Origin: Actinomycetes bacterium
Lineage (GTDB): Bacteria > Actinomycetota > Acidimicrobiia > Acidimicrobiales > Palsa-688
Reading direction: 5' to 3'
Assembly (NCBI GenBank): GCA_021808665.1
Contig: JAKBBA010000147.1
Location: forward strand, 1-7,742
Length of the DNA stretch: 7,742 nt
The notes under the pieces are model-generated. The model did not search any database. It was not told the DNA's origin and was given only the letters and a program-made list of their open reading frames with translations. Numbering within the stretch: position 1 is the first letter of the stretch; each line of letters opens with the position of its first letter. The translations under genes were made by a program, and so were the position numbers. This document shows positions 1 to 7,742 of this stretch, one piece after another.

Positions 1-432
1 TATCGGTCTGTCGCTATGCTGCTCGTAGCATAGCCCTGAGCTGGCGGCGGCCAGCAGGTCGACCGCGGGTGTCGGACGACGGGAGTCGATGTCTCCTTGA
101 ATGTCGAGAACTATCAGACGCTCATTGCTGACGCCCGGCCGGAAGAGACTCGGCAGCGGAGCCAGCCCGGGCCAGTCCTCTCCTCCGGTAATGCAGATGT
201 CTGCGCGCTCTGCCAACTCCCTAAGTGCGACTGGTCCCACCCTTCGGCTTCCCTCATGCCAAACGCTGTAGGCGGGATATACCGCATAGAACGGGTCGTC
301 GTCGCGCTCGACCCGGAACACTTTGGCACCGTGCTCCCGAAGAAAGTGCGCGACGACAGCCGGAGCCATCCCGAGACCCAAGTCAAGAACCGTCAATTCC
401 GAGATCGAACGCAACTTGCGCATTTGCCGCAC
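1..432 (-). CDS. CaiB/BaiF (family III) CoA-transferase, N-terminal part, runs off the left edge
   Basis: An open frame of 144 codons begins at a GTG (432-430) and reaches base 1 without a stop, so the C-terminal part lies outside the window. GGGAG at 442-438 sits 5 bases before the GTG; an ATG three codons later (423) is the alternative start. The N-terminus MRQMRKLRSISELTVLDLG leads into a Rossmann-like segment (LGLGMAPAVVAHFLREHGAK, then VFRVERDDDPF). Next come a WHEGSRRV segment resembling the family's WNRGKRSV, an ADICITGG segment where the family has ADVxxENF, then LIVLDIQG and VDLLAAASSGLCYE. This block order is that of the CaiB/BaiF/formyl-CoA transferase family, which moves CoA between acids or racemises acyl-CoA in the cytoplasm. 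The family's catalytic Asp (about residue 170) is beyond the edge, so activity cannot be judged. It follows the binding-protein gene by about 110 bases on the same strand and is probably co-transcribed, acting on a ring-cleavage product or on substrate activation (inference). Confidence 0.8.
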   Translation of the reverse strand, partial: MRQMRKLRSISELTVLDLGLGMAPAVVAHFLREHGAKVFRVERDDDPFYAVYPAYSVWHEGSRRVGPVALRELAERADICITGGEDWPGLAPLPSLFRPGVSNERLIVLDIQGDIDSRRPTPAVDLLAAASSGLCYEQHSDRPI

Positions 433-543
433 TGCATCTCCCTGCGGTCGATTTCCTGAGCGCATTTGTGGGAGGATCCTTTCTCGCTTTGTAGGTTTCG
501 CTGAGCTGCATCGTCATAGCGCGCCCCCCTGCTACCGGTGCGC
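433..543. other. Short gap between the binding-protein and CoA-transferase genes
   Basis: 111 bases with no clear promoter hexamers and no hairpin-plus-T-run terminator. It holds the CoA-transferase ribosome binding site (GGGAG at 442-438, minus strand). Read-through from the upstream gene is likely. Confidence 0.5.
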
Positions 544-1698
544 TCAGCCGACACCCCACAATTGCTTGAATAGAGTCTGGTAGTTCGTTGGCAGGTCCCA
601 AGAGGTAGCGGGCTTGGTGAGGTTGGACTTGGTGAGCAGTACGAATGGGATGGCGCCGTAGTTCGCTGGTAAGGCGACGCCTTCGCTGAAGCGGGCCGCA
701 GCGTCGACGACGAGCCAACCCGAGTAGAAGTAGCCCTGAGTCGTGACTGCGTTCTCTGTTCCCTGCTGGATGGCCTGCTGGTCGAGGACCGTCCCGGAGC
801 CGGCGGCTATCTTGATATTTTTTATCCCCGCCGCCGCGAGTGCACTCGGCAACCCGGTTGAAAATGCGCCGAGCGTCGATACCACGTAGTTGACCGAGGG
901 GTTACGTCGGAGCGCGGAGACGATCAGCGGTACCGCCTGACCGCCGTCGACCTGGGGGATGGTGGCGTCCAAGTGAGTGATCGTGCAGCCGGCACAGCTC
1001 GAGAGGACCTGCTTGAACGAGGTGCTGAACTGACCGAGGATTGGGTAGGAGGGAACGTTGAAGAGCAGGACGTGTGCCTTTCCCGACGAGTTTGAGATCA
1101 CCCAGTTTGCAATCGCTTTTCCTGAGGAAGGCTGGCTAGGTTGGCCAATGCTGGCAAGTACCGTGCTATTGACCGTGACAGGTCCCGTGAAGGTGGGAAG
1201 AAGCGCCACCTTCGCGCTTGCGTACGCTGGGATCACGCTCGACCATACGGCCTCTGGCAGGCCGACGAAGCTGACTGCGACAGGATGGTACTGCAGCGCC
1301 TGCGTGAGCGCACTCACGAGCGACGCCGGATTGGACTCTGTCGACTGCAGCTGGTGATAGTTCCAGCCCAGCGCAGTAGCTGCCTGCTGTACTCCCTGGC
1401 CGACGAGTGTGCATTCCGGTACTTCGCAGCTGATATATACAATCGTCTTCCCTGTCGCTGGTTTCGAAGGAAGGGGAGCTGTCACGCTGAGCGACGTAGG
1501 TATTGCCTCGTCCTGCCGCACCGCTGCAGTTGCTGATGCGAGCGCTGCGCTCCCGCTACCCGACGATGTCGGCGTCGACGAGGTGGGCGCCGACGGCGCC
1601 GCGGTGTTGGACGACACCGCCTTCGACGCCGACGAGCAGCTCGCAACGAGCAGGGCGGCCATCGCTACCGATGCGAGAGATGCGATTCGGTTCCTCAC
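544..1698 (-). CDS. Solute-binding lipoprotein, periplasmic-binding-protein type 1 (ABC sugar-binding-like)
   Basis: A 384-residue exported lipoprotein. I chose the GTG at 1698 because AAGGAG (1710-1705) lies 6 bases before it; an in-frame ATG at 1713 precedes that Shine-Dalgarno sequence and has a poor one itself. The protein begins MRNRIASLASVAMAALLVAS and has a lipobox VASC with Cys21. A Ser/Thr/Ala/Pro-rich linker follows to about residue 60, typical of actinobacterial surface lipoproteins. The rest reads as a type 1 periplasmic-binding fold: TIVYISC at the first beta strand, VQQAATALGW on the following helix, then SLVSALTQAL, HVLLFNVPSYP, VNYVVSTLGAF, ALAAAGIKNIKIAAG and a C-terminal YGAIPFVLLTKSN. 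Two cysteine pairs, C91/C96 and C235/C238, are unusual for sugar-binding relatives. No permease or ATPase gene is visible nearby, so it either lends substrate to a distant transporter or acts as a sensor. Its place inside a ring-degradation operon suggests an aromatic ligand (inference). Confidence 0.85.
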   Translation of the reverse strand: MRNRIASLASVAMAALLVASCSSASKAVSSNTAAPSAPTSSTPTSSGSGSAALASATAAVRQDEAIPTSLSVTAPLPSKPATGKTIVYISCEVPECTLVGQGVQQAATALGWNYHQLQSTESNPASLVSALTQALQYHPVAVSFVGLPEAVWSSVIPAYASAKVALLPTFTGPVTVNSTVLASIGQPSQPSSGKAIANWVISNSSGKAHVLLFNVPSYPILGQFSTSFKQVLSSCAGCTITHLDATIPQVDGGQAVPLIVSALRRNPSVNYVVSTLGAFSTGLPSALAAAGIKNIKIAAGSGTVLDQQAIQQGTENAVTTQGYFYSGWLVVDAAARFSEGVALPANYGAIPFVLLTKSNLTKPATSWDLPTNYQTLFKQLWGVG

Positions 1699-1704
1699 AT
1701 TTGA

Positions 1705-1710
1705 CTCCTT
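1705..1710 (-). promoter_or_regulatory. Ribosome binding site of the solute-binding lipoprotein gene
   Basis: AAGGAG on the minus strand lies 6 bases before the GTG at 1698. It falls inside the longer frame that starts at ATG 1713, so it argues for the shorter protein beginning MRNR. Confidence 0.75.
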
Positions 1711-1771
1711 CATTGGTTGTTTTGCGGACTCACGAAACTTCTAGTCAGCCATGCCGCCGACGGGCCGCGTG

Positions 1772-2755
1772 TCAGACCTGCCAGGTCAAGAACCCGTTGC
1801 CGCAGCCGGACCCCGCAGGGCTGCGGCGCGTTGGGACGTACTCGCACCATTTGACGGGGTGCTGGGCGAACACTCCAGCAGCGGCAATCCAGTTTCGGAT
1901 CTCGCTCGATCCTTCCAATAGGCGCTCCGCTGGAAGACGCTCGAGAATATGCCTGTCGCTGCGTGCGATCGCCTCGAGGACGCTGCGGTCAAGATCTTCC
2001 TCGACGATGAAGTGGCTAAGACCGCCAGAGGCCAAAATTCCAACGCGGTCGGAAGTGCCGGCCGTCTTAAGCGCTTGGCAGAGCGCCGCGCCGATCGCGT
2101 AGCACCGGGCCGGGGTCGGCTGATTTGGGGCGTAATAGGTATTGATGAGGATCGGAAGGAGGCGAACCGGACCGTCCAAGAGAAGGCGTCGGTGGGGAAA
2201 CGTGAAAGCATGCCCCAGCCCTCGACCAGTAACGTCGGTGTTGAAAGGCGCGACATCGAAACCTTGCCTCACCAAGCTCTCGATGACCTGAACAGCGAGC
2301 TCTCCGGCGGTCGGTAACGGACGGCTTCGGTCCATGCCGAGCCCGGCTACCGCCCGATGCATCCACGGCGCGGCGTCATCGGGTACGGGCATTTGCGCCG
2401 CCGTGGCTTGCTCGCCGGTGTGTATAGCCAGCGTGGGTGTAGACGACGGAGGAAATGCCTCCCCTTGGTCATCACCAATCACGACAAGCACATCAAGCCG
2501 GGCCGCCTCGATATCGCGCCGAAGCCGATCGAGTGCGCCCTGAATCATCCGTCCGCGCTCTTCGAGTACTGCAGGTTGCAGCTGCGCCGAGAGCGAATCA
2601 CCGGCCTCTTCAGCGAGGTCTTGGTAGCTGCGACGTCGACCCTGCTTGTACAACGGCAGCTTCGCGTCGTCTTCGGCACGGCCGAGCCAGTCCTGCCACT
2701 GGACAACCGCGGTGACACCGTGAGATGTCGCGCCTCCAAAAACCACTTCGGTCAA
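1772..2755 (-). CDS. Class III extradiol ring-cleavage dioxygenase (LigB-type)
   Basis: Predicted non-heme Fe(II) enzyme opening a catecholic ring by meta cleavage in the cytoplasm. I chose the TTG at 2755 (327 aa) because the protein then starts three residues before the strand EVVFGGATSHG, which opens nearly all LigB-like proteins. The frame stays open up to a GTG at 2845, but that adds 30 Ser/Arg-rich residues lying mostly over the SDR gene's 3' end. A GTG at 2746 is also possible, and none has a strong Shine-Dalgarno sequence. From the TTG: His12 matches LigB iron ligand His12, Glu285 (SSEIRNWI) matches Glu242, His248 (SGGLSHF) matches the base His195, and His182 (GLGHAFTFP) matches His127. 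The position of ligand His61 reads Gln97 in VIGDDQGEAF. The C-terminus PTRRSPAGSGCGNGF is a conserved tail in related dioxygenases. The gene starts about 50 bases after the SDR stop and likely consumes the SDR's diol product. Confidence 0.85.
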   Translation of the reverse strand: MTEVVFGGATSHGVTAVVQWQDWLGRAEDDAKLPLYKQGRRRSYQDLAEEAGDSLSAQLQPAVLEERGRMIQGALDRLRRDIEAARLDVLVVIGDDQGEAFPPSSTPTLAIHTGEQATAAQMPVPDDAAPWMHRAVAGLGMDRSRPLPTAGELAVQVIESLVRQGFDVAPFNTDVTGRGLGHAFTFPHRRLLLDGPVRLLPILINTYYAPNQPTPARCYAIGAALCQALKTAGTSDRVGILASGGLSHFIVEEDLDRSVLEAIARSDRHILERLPAERLLEGSSEIRNWIAAAGVFAQHPVKWCEYVPTRRSPAGSGCGNGFLTWQV

Positions 2756-2807
2756 GGTGTGACCGAGCCTTGTGCGGGCGGCCGAAGCAGCCGACGTGAG
2801 AGATAAG

Positions 2808-3605
2808 TCACGGCATGAGCTCCGCCGGGTACGGGAACTTGACACTTGCGCCGCCGTCGACGAGCAGGGTTTGGCCTGTGATCTGGCGGGCCATCGACGA
2901 GGAGAGGAAGAGGATCGCGGCGGCGATGTCTGAAGGCTCCGCGAGCGAACCCAGCGGAATCGAGCGGGCGAACCCGGCGCGAACTTCCTCGGTCAAGGTC
3001 GTGAGTACCCGAGGGGTAGCGACGGTGCCCGGAGCGACGGAGTTGACGCGGATCCCCGACCCGCCCAACTCGACGGCCGCTGTTCTCACCAACGAGTTCA
3101 GTCCAGCCTTCGCTGCACCGTACGCGACCTGGCGCGGAGCGCTTGTAACACCGGCAATCGATGACACGAAGACCATCGATCCGCCGCCCTCCGCCGCCAT
3201 GAGCCGGCCGACGAGCTGCGCGAAAAGGAAGGCATGCCGGAGCACCATTCCTGTCGTCCAGTGAAAGTCCTCGTCGGTCATGTCCAACAAGGAGGCGTAT
3301 CGGGATTGTCCTACTATGTCTACGAATCCAGCGATCCTTCCGAGCGCCTCTCTAGCGGCATCTACGGTCGCTGTCACGTCAGCCCGATCGCGGGCGTCAG
3401 CAACCCACGCCGTTCCGCCCACTTCATCGGCGATGCTTTTAGCTAGTCCCTCGTTGATGTCGACGCAGAACAGCTCTGCGCCAGCCGAGCGCAGTGCGTG
3501 AGCGGTTGCTCTGCCGATGCCGTTACCGGCGCCGACGACGACGAAACCGCACCCGTCAAGTCGGAGAGACGGAGCACTCTGCGCAGCTGAGACGGGCGCT
3601 GTCAT
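2808..3605 (-). CDS. Short-chain dehydrogenase/reductase (SDR), classical type, divergent
   Basis: 265-residue NAD(P)-dependent oxidoreductase, close to the usual 250-residue length of classical SDRs. The ATG at 3605 directly follows the Rieske gene's TAG; GAGGA lies 10 bases upstream. Cofactor motif: G25-AGN-G29-I-G31. Asp49 (FCVDIN) at the end of beta 2 suggests NAD rather than NADP. Catalytic residues are Ser149 (VFVSSIAG), Tyr162 and Lys166 (YGAAK). The C-terminus carries RVNSVAPGTVATP and the usual ITGQTLLVDGGAS. Two classical features are missing: the NNAG motif is replaced by DIVGQS (96-101), and the tetrad Asn position, in MVLRHAF around residue 121, is Val. Next to a ring-hydroxylating dioxygenase, the expected job is oxidation of a cis-dihydrodiol to a catechol (inference from order); another alcohol or keto group on the substrate is equally possible. 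Confidence 0.9.
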   Translation of the reverse strand: MTAPVSAAQSAPSLRLDGCGFVVVGAGNGIGRATAHALRSAGAELFCVDINEGLAKSIADEVGGTAWVADARDRADVTATVDAAREALGRIAGFVDIVGQSRYASLLDMTDEDFHWTTGMVLRHAFLFAQLVGRLMAAEGGGSMVFVSSIAGVTSAPRQVAYGAAKAGLNSLVRTAAVELGGSGIRVNSVAPGTVATPRVLTTLTEEVRAGFARSIPLGSLAEPSDIAAAILFLSSSMARQITGQTLLVDGGASVKFPYPAELMP

Positions 3606-4931
3606 CTACGATATGTCCTCGCTGTCGTCGGACTCGCTGTCACCCGTGGGCGCGTCGTGGCCGACGAATTCCTGCCACGGTCTGCTGATGTCCGCCAGCG
3701 CTTCGACCGCCCTTATCGACGACATACCGGCCGGGTCGCAGCGTAGCGGTTCCTCCCCCGCCTGGACTCTCAGCGCCGACTCGATGAGCAATCGTCTCGC
3801 CTTGAGGACTGCCCGGTCAGCGGGGACGACGACTTCGCGAGAGTGGTCATAGAGGGGTCCCATCGACACCTGCATGGCAGCGTCTTCGGCCAGAGTGGTC
3901 CGTAGGCCGCTAAAGCTCGCTCCGCGCATGGTCTCGCGCTGCTGACCATAGTTGTTGGCCCGGTTCATCCTGACATGACCGTCGGGATCAACCAGGTCGG
4001 CCGGGAAGCCGATATTGGCTTTGCGCATCCCTTCGGCGTCGACATTGGCCAGAAACAGCCAGGTGTGTTCGTCGTCTATGGGAGCCCACAACAGCGGCCG
4101 GCCGGTTTCTCCGGGGATGAGTGCCATGTGCGGGACAACGAACGCCGTGATGCGCAAGTGGCGTTTACCTTCAGGAACGCCGCCCCCGGTGCGGATGCCG
4201 GCGTAGTAGAAGCCGAAGTCCGTGGAGAGGAACTCGAGGCGCGGGACTGTCTGCTCGGGATTGAAATTCCGCTCAAGGGTTCCCTCTGACGAGGTGTTCC
4301 TAGACCATTGTTTGACGAGATCAGTGTGAAGCACAAAGGCGTGGGAAGTGTCAAGATTACCGTCCATGACTTGGACGTAGTTGCAGTCGATCAGGTAGCG
4401 GATCGGCTGCTTGTCGGGAGTAGTCTCGTCCATGAACGCGTATTGCGGAAACGGAGGCTGCGTATCAGGCCTGCCGACGTAAACCCAGATGAGCCCGCCG
4501 GCCGAGCGAATCGGGTATGAGGGCTGCTTGACTCGTTCCTTGAACCTTCCGTCGGGCATGTTCGGTGTCTCTTGGATCGTCCCGTCGACACCAAACTTCC
4601 AGCCGTGGTACAGACAACGGATGCCGCAATCTTCGACACGTCCCAGTGCCAACGACGAGCCACGATGGCAGCAGTTCTCGTCGAGTAACCCCAAGACGCC
4701 GTTAGTGTCGCGAAAGGCCACGAAGTCGCGGCCAAGCAGACGCACGTGGCGCGGGTCGCTGTCGGGTATCGCGAAGTCTGCATCGACGCCGACAGGCCAC
4801 CAGTAGCGGCTCAGGGCCTCGCCCATAGGCGTCCCGGGACCAACCCGGCAGAGGAAGTCGTTGTCGACCTCAGGTCGTCGCACGGCCCCGTTACGGGTGA
4901 CTTGAGGGTTCTCAATCTCACTTAGAGTCAT
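3606..4931 (-). CDS. Rieske non-heme iron aromatic ring-hydroxylating oxygenase, alpha subunit (phthalate dioxygenase-like)
   Basis: 441-residue terminal oxygenase that would add O2 to an aromatic ring or O-demethylate a ring substituent, using electrons from a reductase not seen in the window. The ATG (4931) overlaps the preceding gene's stop as ATGA, and GAGGGA lies 8 bases upstream. Rieske [2Fe-2S] domain: Cys87-x-His89 and Cys106-x2-His109, followed by WKF. Catalytic domain: D194-xx-H197-xxxx-H202 (MDGNLDTSHAFVLH) provides the two iron His ligands and the bridging Asp; Asp350 (AEDAAMQVSMGPLYDHSRE) is the likely third ligand. The MGPLYDHSRE block and the length match the phthalate 4,5-dioxygenase group, which works as alpha-only oligomers with separate reductases. 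The small gene upstream is therefore not needed as a beta subunit. The C-terminal 20 residues are Asp/Ser/Glu-rich. The substrate is unknown; the flanking SDR and LigB genes favour a ring dihydroxylation. Confidence 0.93.
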   Translation of the reverse strand: MTLSEIENPQVTRNGAVRRPEVDNDFLCRVGPGTPMGEALSRYWWPVGVDADFAIPDSDPRHVRLLGRDFVAFRDTNGVLGLLDENCCHRGSSLALGRVEDCGIRCLYHGWKFGVDGTIQETPNMPDGRFKERVKQPSYPIRSAGGLIWVYVGRPDTQPPFPQYAFMDETTPDKQPIRYLIDCNYVQVMDGNLDTSHAFVLHTDLVKQWSRNTSSEGTLERNFNPEQTVPRLEFLSTDFGFYYAGIRTGGGVPEGKRHLRITAFVVPHMALIPGETGRPLLWAPIDDEHTWLFLANVDAEGMRKANIGFPADLVDPDGHVRMNRANNYGQQRETMRGASFSGLRTTLAEDAAMQVSMGPLYDHSREVVVPADRAVLKARRLLIESALRVQAGEEPLRCDPAGMSSIRAVEALADISRPWQEFVGHDAPTGDSESDDSEDIS

Positions 4932-5386
4932 TGATTTTGTCCCTCGTCTCCTTCAAGCCAGCCGTCGACGATCGCCAAGAGTTCCGGCGCAGCGCAATAA
5001 ATCCGCTCTGCCTGTAGGCGCTCACCGTCAAACGCCATCACCGCTGACGCGGGATAGCTTCGACCGCCATTCGCGGTGTTGAAGATCCACGCGAACTCTG
5101 TAGCTACCGTCTCTTCACCGAACACGACGGAGCGGTACTCCAACGGAGCGAGTTCGCCGAGATGCTTGATGAATGCCTCGTAGAAGCGTCGAACTGAGTC
5201 CCGGCCCTCGAAGCACCGGCCGCCGAACTCCCACACCGGGGCCGTCGACACGGTTTCCATCACTGCCTCGATGTCAGCGGAGCGTTCAGCACGAGAATGT
5301 TCCTCCATAATCTCCAGAAGCCGAGTGTCCGCTGGCGACAACGGTCTCGCTCCTGATGTGGCCACCGACCTAAGGGTTTGCGACAT
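4928..5386 (-). CDS. NTF2-like / SnoaL-like family protein, first gene of the operon
   Basis: 152 residues from the ATG at 5386. The frame extends to a GTG at 5503, but that would add residues lacking family character and would overlap the operator next to the transcription start. A GTG at 5395 with GAAGAG 7 bases upstream is another candidate. The fold signature is a long N-terminal helix (RLLEIMEEHSRAERSADIEAV), then VWEFGGRCFEGRDSVRRFYE, VVFGEETVATEFAWIF and SAVMAFDGERLQAERIYC. This alternates helix and strand as in the cone-shaped NTF2/SnoaL group and resembles its limonene-epoxide-hydrolase, ketosteroid-isomerase and polyketide-cyclase branches. I cannot assign catalytic residues. Ring-hydroxylating beta subunits share this fold, but the Rieske partner belongs to a group that normally has none. 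A role in isomerising or dehydrating a pathway intermediate is possible. The stop overlaps the Rieske start by 4 bases (ATGA), so the two are probably translationally coupled. Confidence 0.78.
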   Translation of the reverse strand: MSQTLRSVATSGARPLSPADTRLLEIMEEHSRAERSADIEAVMETVSTAPVWEFGGRCFEGRDSVRRFYEAFIKHLGELAPLEYRSVVFGEETVATEFAWIFNTANGGRSYPASAVMAFDGERLQAERIYCAAPELLAIVDGWLEGDEGQNQ

Positions 5387-5493
5387 TGTTTGCACGCTCT
5401 CTTTCTCTTCGCCTGACAGCAACCGGGTCCGACCTTCTCCTTGATCTAGACCGTCGAGTCCCCATACCGGAGTGCCCTCCCACAAGGCAGACC

Positions 5494-5509
5494 GACTGAT
5501 CACTCATTC
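5494..5509. promoter_or_regulatory. Putative TetR operator O1
   Basis: GACTGATCACTCATTC matches the site upstream of tetR (5627-5642) at 13 of 16 positions. Its arms GACTGA and TCATTC are inverted except for one base. It lies about 13-28 bases downstream of the predicted operon start and 19 bp from O2, centre to centre. Confidence 0.6.
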
Positions 5510-5512
5510 ACT

Positions 5513-5528
5513 GACTGATCGTTCGCTC
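5513..5528. promoter_or_regulatory. Putative TetR operator O2
   Basis: GACTGATCGTTCGCTC shares the 8-base GACTGATC with O1 and matches the tetR-proximal site at 12 of 16 positions. It begins the base after the operon's -10 box and covers the predicted start point. Its right arm is the weakest of the three sites (4 of 6 inverted positions). Confidence 0.6.
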
Positions 5529-5557
5529 ACTATAGGAGACCGGGGCGCACGTGTCAA
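5529..5557 (-). promoter_or_regulatory. SigA/sigma-70-type promoter of the catabolic operon
   Basis: On the minus strand TTGACA (5557-5552) is followed by a 17-base spacer and TATAGT (5534-5529). That is a perfect -35, the optimal spacing and a -10 with one base off TATAAT. The start point is predicted near 5522. A tandem pair of operator-like sites begins directly after the -10 box, so a repressor bound there would block transcription initiation. Confidence 0.8.
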
Positions 5558-5626
5558 GAGTCCGAGACCGCGCCGACGATCCTCCGGTCGAACACTCCTA
5601 AACCATCGCCATCGAAGCGGACCCAG

Positions 5627-5642
5627 ACTGAACGCTCAGTCG
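5627..5642. promoter_or_regulatory. Putative TetR operator O3 (autoregulatory)
   Basis: A perfect inverted repeat: arms GACTGA and TCAGTC around the centre ACGC. It lies 56 bases before the tetR start codon, where the promoter of that gene must be. It would sit between -35 and -10 if TACCAT (5648-5653) is the -10. It is the best-formed of the three related sites and suggests that TetR represses its own gene. Confidence 0.65.
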
Positions 5643-5686
5643 CTGCTACCATCCACAGGTGTTAAGAGCCGAAGCTCCGATTCGAC

Positions 5687-5693
5687 GAGGAGA
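5687..5693 (+). promoter_or_regulatory. tetR ribosome binding site
   Basis: GAGGAGA, with the AGGAG core 5 bases before the GTG at 5698, decides between that start and the upstream GTG at 5659. Confidence 0.75.
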
Positions 5694-5697
5694 TCCA

Positions 5698-6411
5698 GTG
5701 GCAGAACGATCCGCTTCCGCCATCATTAAGAGACCTGTAGCCAGGGTCGCCGACGACCGCCTCGTCGAGGTCAGACGAGAGCAGATCGTCGACGCTGCCA
5801 TTAAGTTGGTAACCACCCAGGGATTTTCCAAGACGACGGTCCGCCAGATAGCCGACGCCGCTGAAATGTCCGTGGGGCTTGTCTATGAGTACATCCGCCG
5901 CAAGGAAGACATCCTCTTCCTCATCATGGAACACGGCCACGAGGTCTGGCGCCGAGGGCTTGCCGAGGCACTCGCCGGAGACGCCTCGTCGCTGGAGAGG
6001 CTACGTCGCGGAGCGACTTTCCTCGTCGACAGCGCCTCCAAGCACCCCGACGAGATTCTTATCTGGTACCGGGAGTCCGGCTACCTGAGTGCCGCCGGCC
6101 TGACTATGGCCAAGGACGCCGAGTGCGACCTCGTCGACCTGTTGAGAGGGGTAATCGTCGAAGCGATCGCAGACGGATATTTAGTCAAAAGCACCGACCC
6201 CTTCTACCTCGCGACCATGCTCGTAGCATCGAGTCACACCTGGGTCCTCAAGGGTTACCTGCTATCCGGCCACATGACTCGAAGCGACTTCACCTCCAAC
6301 CTGATCAACACCCTCATAGTCCCAATCGCGTCAAGGGCACCTAGCAAACCGGGCCCGCCAAACCCGCACGAACGATCGGATCCCCGAAAGCGTGTTCGCC
6401 GAGCGCCGTAA
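5698..6411 (+). CDS. TetR/AcrR-family transcriptional regulator, divergent to the catabolic operon
   Basis: 237 residues from the GTG at 5698, chosen because AGGAG (5688-5692) lies 5 bases upstream; the frame is open from another GTG at 5659 without such a site. An 18-residue basic N-terminal arm precedes the TetR DNA-binding domain at about residues 24-72: VRREQIVDAAIKLVTTQGFS, then TTVRQIADAAEMSVGLVYEYI with the recognition helix at VGLVYEYI, then RRKEDIL. The rest is a helical ligand-binding and dimerisation domain (GATFLVDSASKHPDEILIWY, YLATMLVASSHTWVLKGYLL). The C-terminal 25 residues are Pro/Arg-rich and probably disordered. Its divergent position and the three shared operator-like sites indicate a local repressor of the ring-degradation operon and of itself, released by the substrate or an intermediate (inference). 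An acyl-CoA or aromatic effector cannot be told apart from sequence. Confidence 0.9.
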   Translation: MAERSASAIIKRPVARVADDRLVEVRREQIVDAAIKLVTTQGFSKTTVRQIADAAEMSVGLVYEYIRRKEDILFLIMEHGHEVWRRGLAEALAGDASSLERLRRGATFLVDSASKHPDEILIWYRESGYLSAAGLTMAKDAECDLVDLLRGVIVEAIADGYLVKSTDPFYLATMLVASSHTWVLKGYLLSGHMTRSDFTSNLINTLIVPIASRAPSKPGPPNPHERSDPRKRVRRAP

Positions 6412-6466: not shown

Positions 6467-7699
6467 TCAGGGCAGGAGCTTTCGCAGGGTGTCCCGCCGT
6501 TCGGTCAGGCGGCGTAGCGCGTCCCGACCCAGATGCTCCCCGAGTACCGGCCACGCTGCAAGCACCCGTTGAACAGCCCGGTCGGCGCGCTCGCGGCCAA
6601 GCCCGCCGTCCCATCCCGCCTTCTCGGCGAGTCGGCCGAACGCCGCAAGATCGACGTCGGCGAACGAACGCGAACCATTGAGCTTGAGGCCAAGATCGTC
6701 ATGGGGAATGTAGAGCACCGTCGGCACGATGTCGTAGGCGGGGCTGAGCTGCGGGCGGCTGCCGTCCGGGTAGATGAACGTCCAGTTCTTGACGTGGGCG
6801 TCGCCATTGCCGACGAGAATATTCAAGACAATCCGGTCGATCACCTCCCCGACGCGCTCGGCACCGCTAAGAGCTGCGACCGTTCGAGCGACCGTCTCAA
6901 AGTTGGCCCGCTCGTACTTGCGAGCGGGCCGAATGTCGAGGACTTGGGCGAGGTCCTCCGCGTGGACGCGGCTGCTGGCTAGGCGACGATCGAAGCGCCG
7001 CACGAGGAGCGCCCAGCCGTTGGTCCTGGCCCATTCCGGCAGACCGCCGATGCCGCTGACATCGACGAGTCGGGTCTCAGGCACGTCGATGCCCGAAGCG
7101 GCGGCCAGCTGCATGGCCGCGTACTCGGCTTCGGGGACCCCTTCGTAGCCGACGCGGGCATCGGGAAGCTTGGCGATCCATGTACCCGACTCGCCGGTCG
7201 CTGGGATGGTGAGACCACGCCCATGTTCTGTCAACGAGAATTTGAGCTGCACGCCAGCGAGAGAAAATTTGATGGAACCAGATGCGTCGGCGTGTTCGAC
7301 CGCAGGGATTTCGTCGTCGGGCATCGACATGTCCGCCTCGATGTCGACCGGATGGAGGCGAAGAGCACCAGGGAGATCGTCTCGGCCGATGCGAGCGAGG
7401 AGGGCGAATTCGCGCTCCGCCTTGACACCGACTGCCCGAGCGATCGTGTCCCGCAGAGTTCCCTCTGGAAGGAGGTTCGAAAACCAGCTTGGTAACGCAG
7501 CACGCGCGGACAGTCGCCACGACGGTCCGCGTTGCTCGAAGACCTGCCCCAGTACCGGCCTCGAAGGCGCTTCCCAATAGCTTTCGAATGACGAGAAGAC
7601 AGTCGTCTCGCCGTCACGGACGAGGCGACCGCCCGCTATCCACCGACCCTCAGAGTCTTGGAGGTCGACCTGCAAGGCTGACGGGATAGCGTCGCTCAC
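6467..7699 (-). CDS. HipA-family serine/threonine protein kinase (toxin of a HipBA-type module)
   Basis: 410 residues from a GTG at 7699, a usual HipA length. An in-frame GTG at 7717 is the longest possible start, since a TGA lies three codons above it. I prefer 7699 because it overlaps a probable upstream stop as GTGA. The N-terminal subdomain (to about residue 115) has GRLVRDG, FSSFESYW, and SNLLPEG at 74-80. The kinase core has the flexible loop FSLAGVQLK, where Ser146 corresponds to the autophosphorylated Ser150 of E. coli HipA by motif. It also has the ATP-binding Lys177 (WIAKLPD), LLVRRFDR at 231-238, catalytic GNGDAHVKNW with Asp300, and SPAYDIVPT with metal-binding Asp323. All key residues are present, so it is predicted active. 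E. coli HipA phosphorylates glutamyl-tRNA synthetase; the target here is unknown. It converges on tetR, with 55 bases between the stops and no clear terminator, and is probably unrelated to the catabolic genes. Confidence 0.92.
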   Translation of the reverse strand: MSDAIPSALQVDLQDSEGRWIAGGRLVRDGETTVFSSFESYWEAPSRPVLGQVFEQRGPSWRLSARAALPSWFSNLLPEGTLRDTIARAVGVKAEREFALLARIGRDDLPGALRLHPVDIEADMSMPDDEIPAVEHADASGSIKFSLAGVQLKFSLTEHGRGLTIPATGESGTWIAKLPDARVGYEGVPEAEYAAMQLAAASGIDVPETRLVDVSGIGGLPEWARTNGWALLVRRFDRRLASSRVHAEDLAQVLDIRPARKYERANFETVARTVAALSGAERVGEVIDRIVLNILVGNGDAHVKNWTFIYPDGSRPQLSPAYDIVPTVLYIPHDDLGLKLNGSRSFADVDLAAFGRLAEKAGWDGGLGRERADRAVQRVLAAWPVLGEHLGRDALRRLTERRDTLRKLLP

Positions 7700-7742
7700 G
7701 CTGGGTCGGGCACCCACAGCTCGTCAAGGGGGGGACTACGGG
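7696..7742 (-). CDS. 3' end of an upstream gene, probably a hipB-like antitoxin (partial)
   Basis: The last 15 codons of a minus-strand frame enter from the right edge and end at TGA (7698-7696), reading RSPPLDELWVPDPA. The stop overlaps the preferred hipA start as GTGA. This is the normal arrangement for a HipB-type helix-turn-helix antitoxin upstream of hipA, and the acidic, proline-containing tail would suit one. Too little is visible to recognise the family, so the identity rests on position. Confidence 0.4.
   Translation of the reverse strand, partial: RSPPLDELWVPDPA

Follow-up and report, generated by a model that had tools for sequence, protein, structure and literature searches.

Divergent regulators that switch off both a neighbouring gene cluster and themselves are common in bacteria. 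The tetA/tetR-type switch is one such arrangement, and it has divergent genes, operators at both promoters and expected autoregulation in common with the locus described here. PMC3511530 describes TetR with two 15-bp palindromes, whereas SCO7222 and ActR appear there with three operator sites. It treats divergent targets of TetR-family regulators as reliable when the distance is below 200 bp, and names as exceptions repressors with 280, 409 and 898 bp. Two repressors of the same family that are displaced by fatty acids, BM3R1 and FatR, are covered by the excerpt of PMC3814354: BM3R1 works by roadblock, and FatR has an 18-bp palindrome between the transcription start and the Shine-Dalgarno sequence.

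The window (the whole analysed stretch of DNA, 7,742 nucleotides in length) contains a tetR gene on the plus strand, which diverges from an operon on the minus strand (Table 1). The start codons of tetR and of the first operon gene are separated by 311 bp, or by 275 bp if the operon begins at TTG 5422. The gene cluster looks suited to the breakdown of aromatic compounds. Some sources name the relatives of its Rieske protein phthalate 4,5-dioxygenase, and the best solved relatives of this protein are 7fjl and 7fhr, so that an aromatic substrate of the operon is likely on the basis of these matches. The gene that follows the LigB-type dioxygenase encodes a sugar-type binding protein, which is odd company for an aromatic operon. 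Past the end of tetR, a gene for a HipA-like kinase (HipA_C, Couple_hipA; 6467–7717) is encoded on the minus strand, and any HipB partner upstream of it would fall at or beyond the end of the window. The product of the cut-off gene at the other end (1–465, minus strand) gave no Pfam or NCBIfam match; by eye it looks like the beginning of CaiB/BaiF CoA-transferases.

Table 1. Coordinates of the predicted regulatory features and genes of the window.
Feature	Position	Strand	Description	Remarks
O1	5494..5509	+	operator-like box GACTGATCACTCATTC	approximately +14 to +29 in the transcript expected from the predicted operon promoter
O2	5513..5528	+	operator-like box GACTGATCGTTCGCTC	begins at the base next to the operon -10 hexamer, directly downstream of it; spans the expected start
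O3	5626..5641	.	palindromic operator-like box GACTGAACGCTCAGTC	6-bp arms, 4-bp centre
Operon promoter	5529..5557	-	sigma-70-like, TTGACA-17-TATAGT, 11/12	predicted; start expected near 5522
Candidate tetR promoter	5624..5652	+	CAGACT-17-TACCAT, 7/12, weak	tentative; overlapped by O3
tetR	5698..6411	+	TetR_N, TetR_C_24; 237 aa	likely start GTG 5698 after GAGGAG
SnoaL_2-type gene	4928..5386	-	first operon gene	start ATG 5386, or TTG 5422 behind AAGGAGAAGG
Rieske oxygenase gene	3606..4931	-	with LigXa_C domain	4-bp overlap with the SnoaL gene
Short-chain dehydrogenase gene	2808..3605	-	domain match	
LigB-type extradiol dioxygenase gene	1772..2845	-		listed GTG overlaps the preceding gene, and the actual start may lie inside the listed frame
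Periplasmic substrate-binding protein gene	544..1713	-	Peripla_BP_4	operon membership suggested by strand and spacing

The divergent regulator is a member of the TetR family, with scores of 41.3 bits for TetR_N (PF00440; cut-off 24) and 36.9 bits for TetR_C_24 (PF17932; cut-off 26.4). Its predicted model (mean pLDDT 82.8) has the all-helical TetR fold, and the 50 Foldseek matches listed are TetR-family structures. A database copy of the protein (P0001) also has 237 aa. In both sequence match and predicted fold the regulator is like the acyl-CoA-responsive TetRs FadR of Bacillus and AibR: its best PDB sequence match was AibR (5k7f, E 2.7e-12), and its fold matched 3whb_B (FadR, TMt 0.84) and 5k7z_A (AibR, 0.79). 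The NCBIfam FadR model matched the N-terminal part (E 1.2e-9) with 38.2 bits, a score far below the cut-off of 200 for FadR membership. Since TetRs that do not respond to acyl-CoA, e.g. SmcR, scored equally in the fold search, the likeness of fold leaves the ligand class unsettled. The FadR box, which we take to be TGAATGAnTAnTCATTCA, resembles O1.

Three boxes of 16 bp lie between tetR and the operon. According to the original prediction, they share the pattern GACTGAnCnnTCnnTC, and O1 and O2 form a tandem pair, exactly 19 bp apart, over the predicted operon start. Each of the three 16-mers was found and conforms to this pattern, the coordinates and spacing of the pair are exact, and its position over the start agrees with the predicted promoter. 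O3 was correctly described as a perfect palindrome with 6-bp arms (GACTGA-ACGC-TCAGTC), but it lies one base lower than the proposed 5627–5642; owing to this shift, the distance from O2 to O3 is 113 bp (start to start) instead of 114 bp, and that from O1 to O3 is 132 bp. On the opposite strand the right halves of O1 and O2 read GAATGA and GAGCGA, respectively, and these two boxes are thus imperfect palindromes. The nearest likely translation starts of the operon (TTG 5422 and ATG 5386) are found 71–107 bp past O1. The search for the operon promoter found one (shuffle mean 0.0, sd 0.2), while the candidate tetR promoter is below the main search threshold and was picked up solely with laxer limits.

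The three sites are real and more alike than expected by chance. The pattern matched four times in the window (O3 being counted on both strands), whereas 200 shuffles averaged 0.01 matches; this excess is inflated because the pattern was derived from these very sites. An unbiased repeat search grouped the same three sites as one family. In an unbiased test of the intergenic region (5387–5697), in which any three non-overlapping 16-mers with at least 11 columns in common were accepted, a trio this alike was reached by only two of 500 dinucleotide shuffles. We consider it extremely unlikely that the likeness of the sites reflects chance, or functionless periodic sequence rich in GACT/GATC around 5490–5532. 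Near-matches at 5490 and 5509 overlap the pair, other registers overlap both O1 and O2, and the palindrome of O3 is not significant when taken by itself (a perfect 6-4-6 palindrome appeared in 8.9% of 2,000 shuffles); the rarity of the trio, the location of the boxes at promoters and the recurrence of the box in three other loci (L001, L002 and L004, see below) nevertheless argue against such an origin.

The strongest support for the putative operators comes from the boxes of related TetRs. A scan of genome contigs for relatives of the window TetR yielded four loci (L001–L004). Two of them, L001 and L002, from Actinomycetota MAGs, encode TetRs 47% and 46% identical to that of the window, and the gene opposite tetR codes for an acyl-CoA dehydrogenase instead of the Rieske/LigB operon. 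Each of these loci carries two boxes, GACCGAACGTTCAATC and GACTGAACCCTCATTC, placed 65 and 64 bp apart, respectively, with one box per promoter. The former is located mainly in the -35/-10 spacer of the predicted dehydrogenase promoter, and the latter upstream of tetR, where it touches the edge of the predicted -35 hexamer in L001. No further match to the window palindrome with up to two mismatches was detected anywhere in the two loci, and none of 1,999 permuted palindromes matched the L001 intergenic region. The presence of the box at the promoters of TetRs that face another gene suggests that the box stays with the regulator even where a different operon is its target. In L004 (Planctomycetota), whose TetR has the same VYEYVR-KED stretch, GACCGACCAGTCAGTC was found 8 bp before the probable ATG of tetR; a longer frame would place this box inside the gene, and the TetR domain starts after the box. 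In L003 (Dehalococcoidia) the box is absent near tetR.

Whole-locus scans of 18 more distant TetR loci (L007–L024) revealed no boxes with up to two mismatches. With three mismatches, sites were detected in L018, far from tetR, and in L022, which has one site approximately 80 bp before the matched stretch and another far away. Two of these loci, L015 and L018, contain another palindrome, GTGAATnnnnATTCAC; the sequences GTGAATCTATATTCAC, GTGAATTCAGATTCAC and GTGAATATCGATTCAC upstream of their tetR genes represent a second box type, and their TetRs read YRYFGGKD in place of YEYIRRKED.

The database proteins P0002 (TetR, 81%) and P0014 (Rieske protein, 88%) agree in source, contig number (3) and longest contig (11,873), and they are probably encoded on one contig, in which case the tetR-Rieske arrangement has been kept in at least one relative. 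Searches for more orthologues matched two of 100 relatives of G001, namely G001 itself and G002 (which carry L001 and L002, respectively), and, at the set E limits, 8 of 396 and 4 of 395 genomes (overlapping sets). A codon pattern for VYEY(V/I/M)xxK(E/D), applied to 396 genomes, matched G001 alone, which adds no independent case because the TetR of this genome was known beforehand. A pattern was matched by 216 stretches of viral contigs, but no relative is encoded in any of them. TetR matches were present in 23 plasmid records (best identity 31.6%) and Rieske matches in 622, all of them below 60% identity.

The comparison with L001 and L002 also bears on the spacing of the boxes. The 19 bp between O1 and O2, together with a third box 113 bp off, might point to cooperative filling of the pair and to a DNA loop from O2/O1 to O3 that couples both promoters. 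Measured centre to centre at 10.5 bp per turn, however, the distances of 19, 113 and 132 bp correspond to 1.81, 10.8 and 12.6 turns, which leaves O1 and O2 approximately 70 degrees short of the same helix face. The single boxes at each promoter in the two relatives, 65 and 64 bp apart, indicate that neither the pair nor the spacing has been kept. Cooperative binding combined with looping is therefore very unlikely. Looping, which had been proposed earlier, was rejected with respect to distance, phase and conservation, since the two longer distances (10.8 and 12.6 turns) are both short and neither is a whole number of turns. We know of no TetR-family dimers that form DNA loops.

A role of the repeats in a structured, riboswitch-like leader RNA, rather than as DNA operators, seems scarcely credible. 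O1 and most of O2 would indeed fall within the transcribed leader, but O3 lies outside the operon transcript and the boxes of the relatives are located in promoters, not in leaders. An RNA element was rejected, as no Rfam match was obtained at E up to 1 within 4900–5800.

The exact palindrome GACTGANCGNTCAGTC was found at seven sites in 296 genomes, once per genome, and five of the seven lie beside tetR genes; its reversed control was missing from the matches listed for the same genomes. These five sites are found (i) beside a TetR_C_6-type tetR, opposite the gene of an amine-oxidase-like FAD protein (L046 and L047), and (ii) as GACTGAACGTTCAGTC in three genomes, upstream of a TetR_C_24 gene with an MMPL-type neighbour (L048–L050; this neighbour was recognized by Pfam in L048 and by likeness in the other two). 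They represent two lineages, not five independent events, and their tetR genes belong to subfamilies other than that of the window TetR. The remaining two sites, inside Tad-like and dihydrodipicolinate-synthase-like genes, look like chance matches. The box is thus shared by unrelated TetR subfamilies and does not by itself identify its binder.

The pattern GACYGAACNNTCANTC, with up to one mismatch, was detected at 13 sites in G001 and 9 in G002, four of them exact in each genome; the sites that define the pattern account for two in each (two of the exact ones in both cases). When these, and two G001 sites on contig C646, are set aside, 13 of the 16 remaining sites are followed within 60 bp by a gene start according to our own ORF calls, and three (L028, L029 and L040) are ambiguous. 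The genes behind the boxes encode AMP-binding/AMP-ligase proteins, acyl-CoA dehydrogenase, enoyl-CoA hydratase, P450, aldehyde dehydrogenase and luciferase-like proteins; one has a MaoC-like match below the cut-off, and another, without an assigned family, precedes a TetR gene. Six 16-mers are common to both genomes. Two boxes 63 bp apart (positions 1501–1516 of both L042 and L043, G001:C640) occupy the space between an aldehyde dehydrogenase gene and a luciferase-like gene that diverge from each other. Two matched shuffled control patterns gave, with up to one mismatch, 5 and 5, and 6 and 5 sites in G001 and G002, none exact (a third control, with 1 and 1 and likewise no exact site, has one extra fixed base and is stricter, so that only the first two are matched). 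The controls were compared with the box by the count of matches alone and the numerical excess is modest, so that the evidence lies in placement and recurrence. The gene-start placement and the recurrence beside several TetR types suggest that several TetRs share the box as a class of operator. Among literature matches for the core TGAACGTTCA (a scope outside which most subscription journals fall) no title pointed to a TetR operator paper, and the excerpt of PMC6262395 contains no usable operator consensus.

These observations raise the question of which protein binds the boxes. They could be TetR-type operators bound mainly by unlinked TetRs within a shared regulon, the adjacent TetR having a different target. 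The exact palindrome beside TetR_C_6-type and MMPL-linked genes is in line with this, as are the boxes before varied catabolic genes in G001 and G002, which suggest shared or overlapping regulons; the cognate regulator could thus be another TetR, a point that counts against self-regulation by the window TetR. However, the predicted tetR promoter has a box of its own, and the layout recurs with a 46–47% identical TetR opposite another operon, as a cognate operator predicts. Mainly unlinked binding therefore appears unlikely.

We consider it likely that the intergenic region is a divergent, autoregulated TetR-family switch of the Rieske/LigB operon, and the boxes are very probably the docking sites of a regulator that switches off both the cluster and itself. 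The initial proposal of operators at both promoters is borne out, as far as sequence comparison goes, by the placement of the boxes, by the same box at the L001 and L002 promoters and by tetR-adjacent boxes in other genomes, including that of L004. Binding by the window TetR, repression, autoregulation, the inducer and the filling of O1 and O2, whether independent or cooperative, are parts of a model in which dimers of this TetR would occupy O2 and O1 when the inducer is absent. The dimer on O2 would stop polymerase from initiating at the strong operon promoter, and that on O1 would block it just downstream of the start, in early elongation. A dimer bound to O3 would cover the tetR promoter and limit synthesis of the repressor. 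The dimers would be released by a small pathway compound, for which an aromatic acid, a CoA thioester or a product of ring cleavage is the probable candidate, and the SnoaL-Rieske-SDR-LigB genes would then be expressed. The doubled site may tighten repression of the operon, whereas L001 and L002 manage with one box per promoter.

A broader proposal, which we put forward tentatively and regard as doubtful, is that GACYGAnCGnTCAnTC represents a shared operator class of catabolic TetRs in Actinomycetota and beyond. The window TetR would then be a member that has captured an aromatic ring-cleavage operon, and the two sites past the -10 hexamer would shut the operon more tightly than tetR. If this is true, cross-talk between several TetRs through such closely related boxes would be built by design into the acyl-CoA and aromatic catabolism of these bacteria. 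The locus provides a concrete, testable candidate operator for an unstudied TetR group, tied to a Rieske/LigB operon, and the inducer, once found, would point to the substrate of the operon. The occurrence of one box in several TetR subfamilies calls for caution in naming a binder from the box alone.

Compared with the tetA/tetR-type switch, palindromic boxes are likewise found at both predicted promoters (O2/O1 at that of the operon, O3 at the weak one of tetR), but the target is a catabolic operon and not an efflux pump, two of the three boxes come after the -10 hexamer in the target promoter, and the start codons are 311 bp apart, a distance above 200 bp. BM3R1 and FatR, which we set beside the locus by their descriptions, are likewise TetR-family repressors, and the position of the FatR palindrome resembles that of O1 and O2; the post-start site of FatR and the roadblock of BM3R1 are precedents for the proposed action at O2 and O1. 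The operator core of BM3R1, which we take to be GAATGAACGTTCATTC, is close to the window box. The two systems differ in that BM3R1 and FatR have P450 targets and a fatty-acid inducer, whereas the target here is a Rieske/LigB operon.
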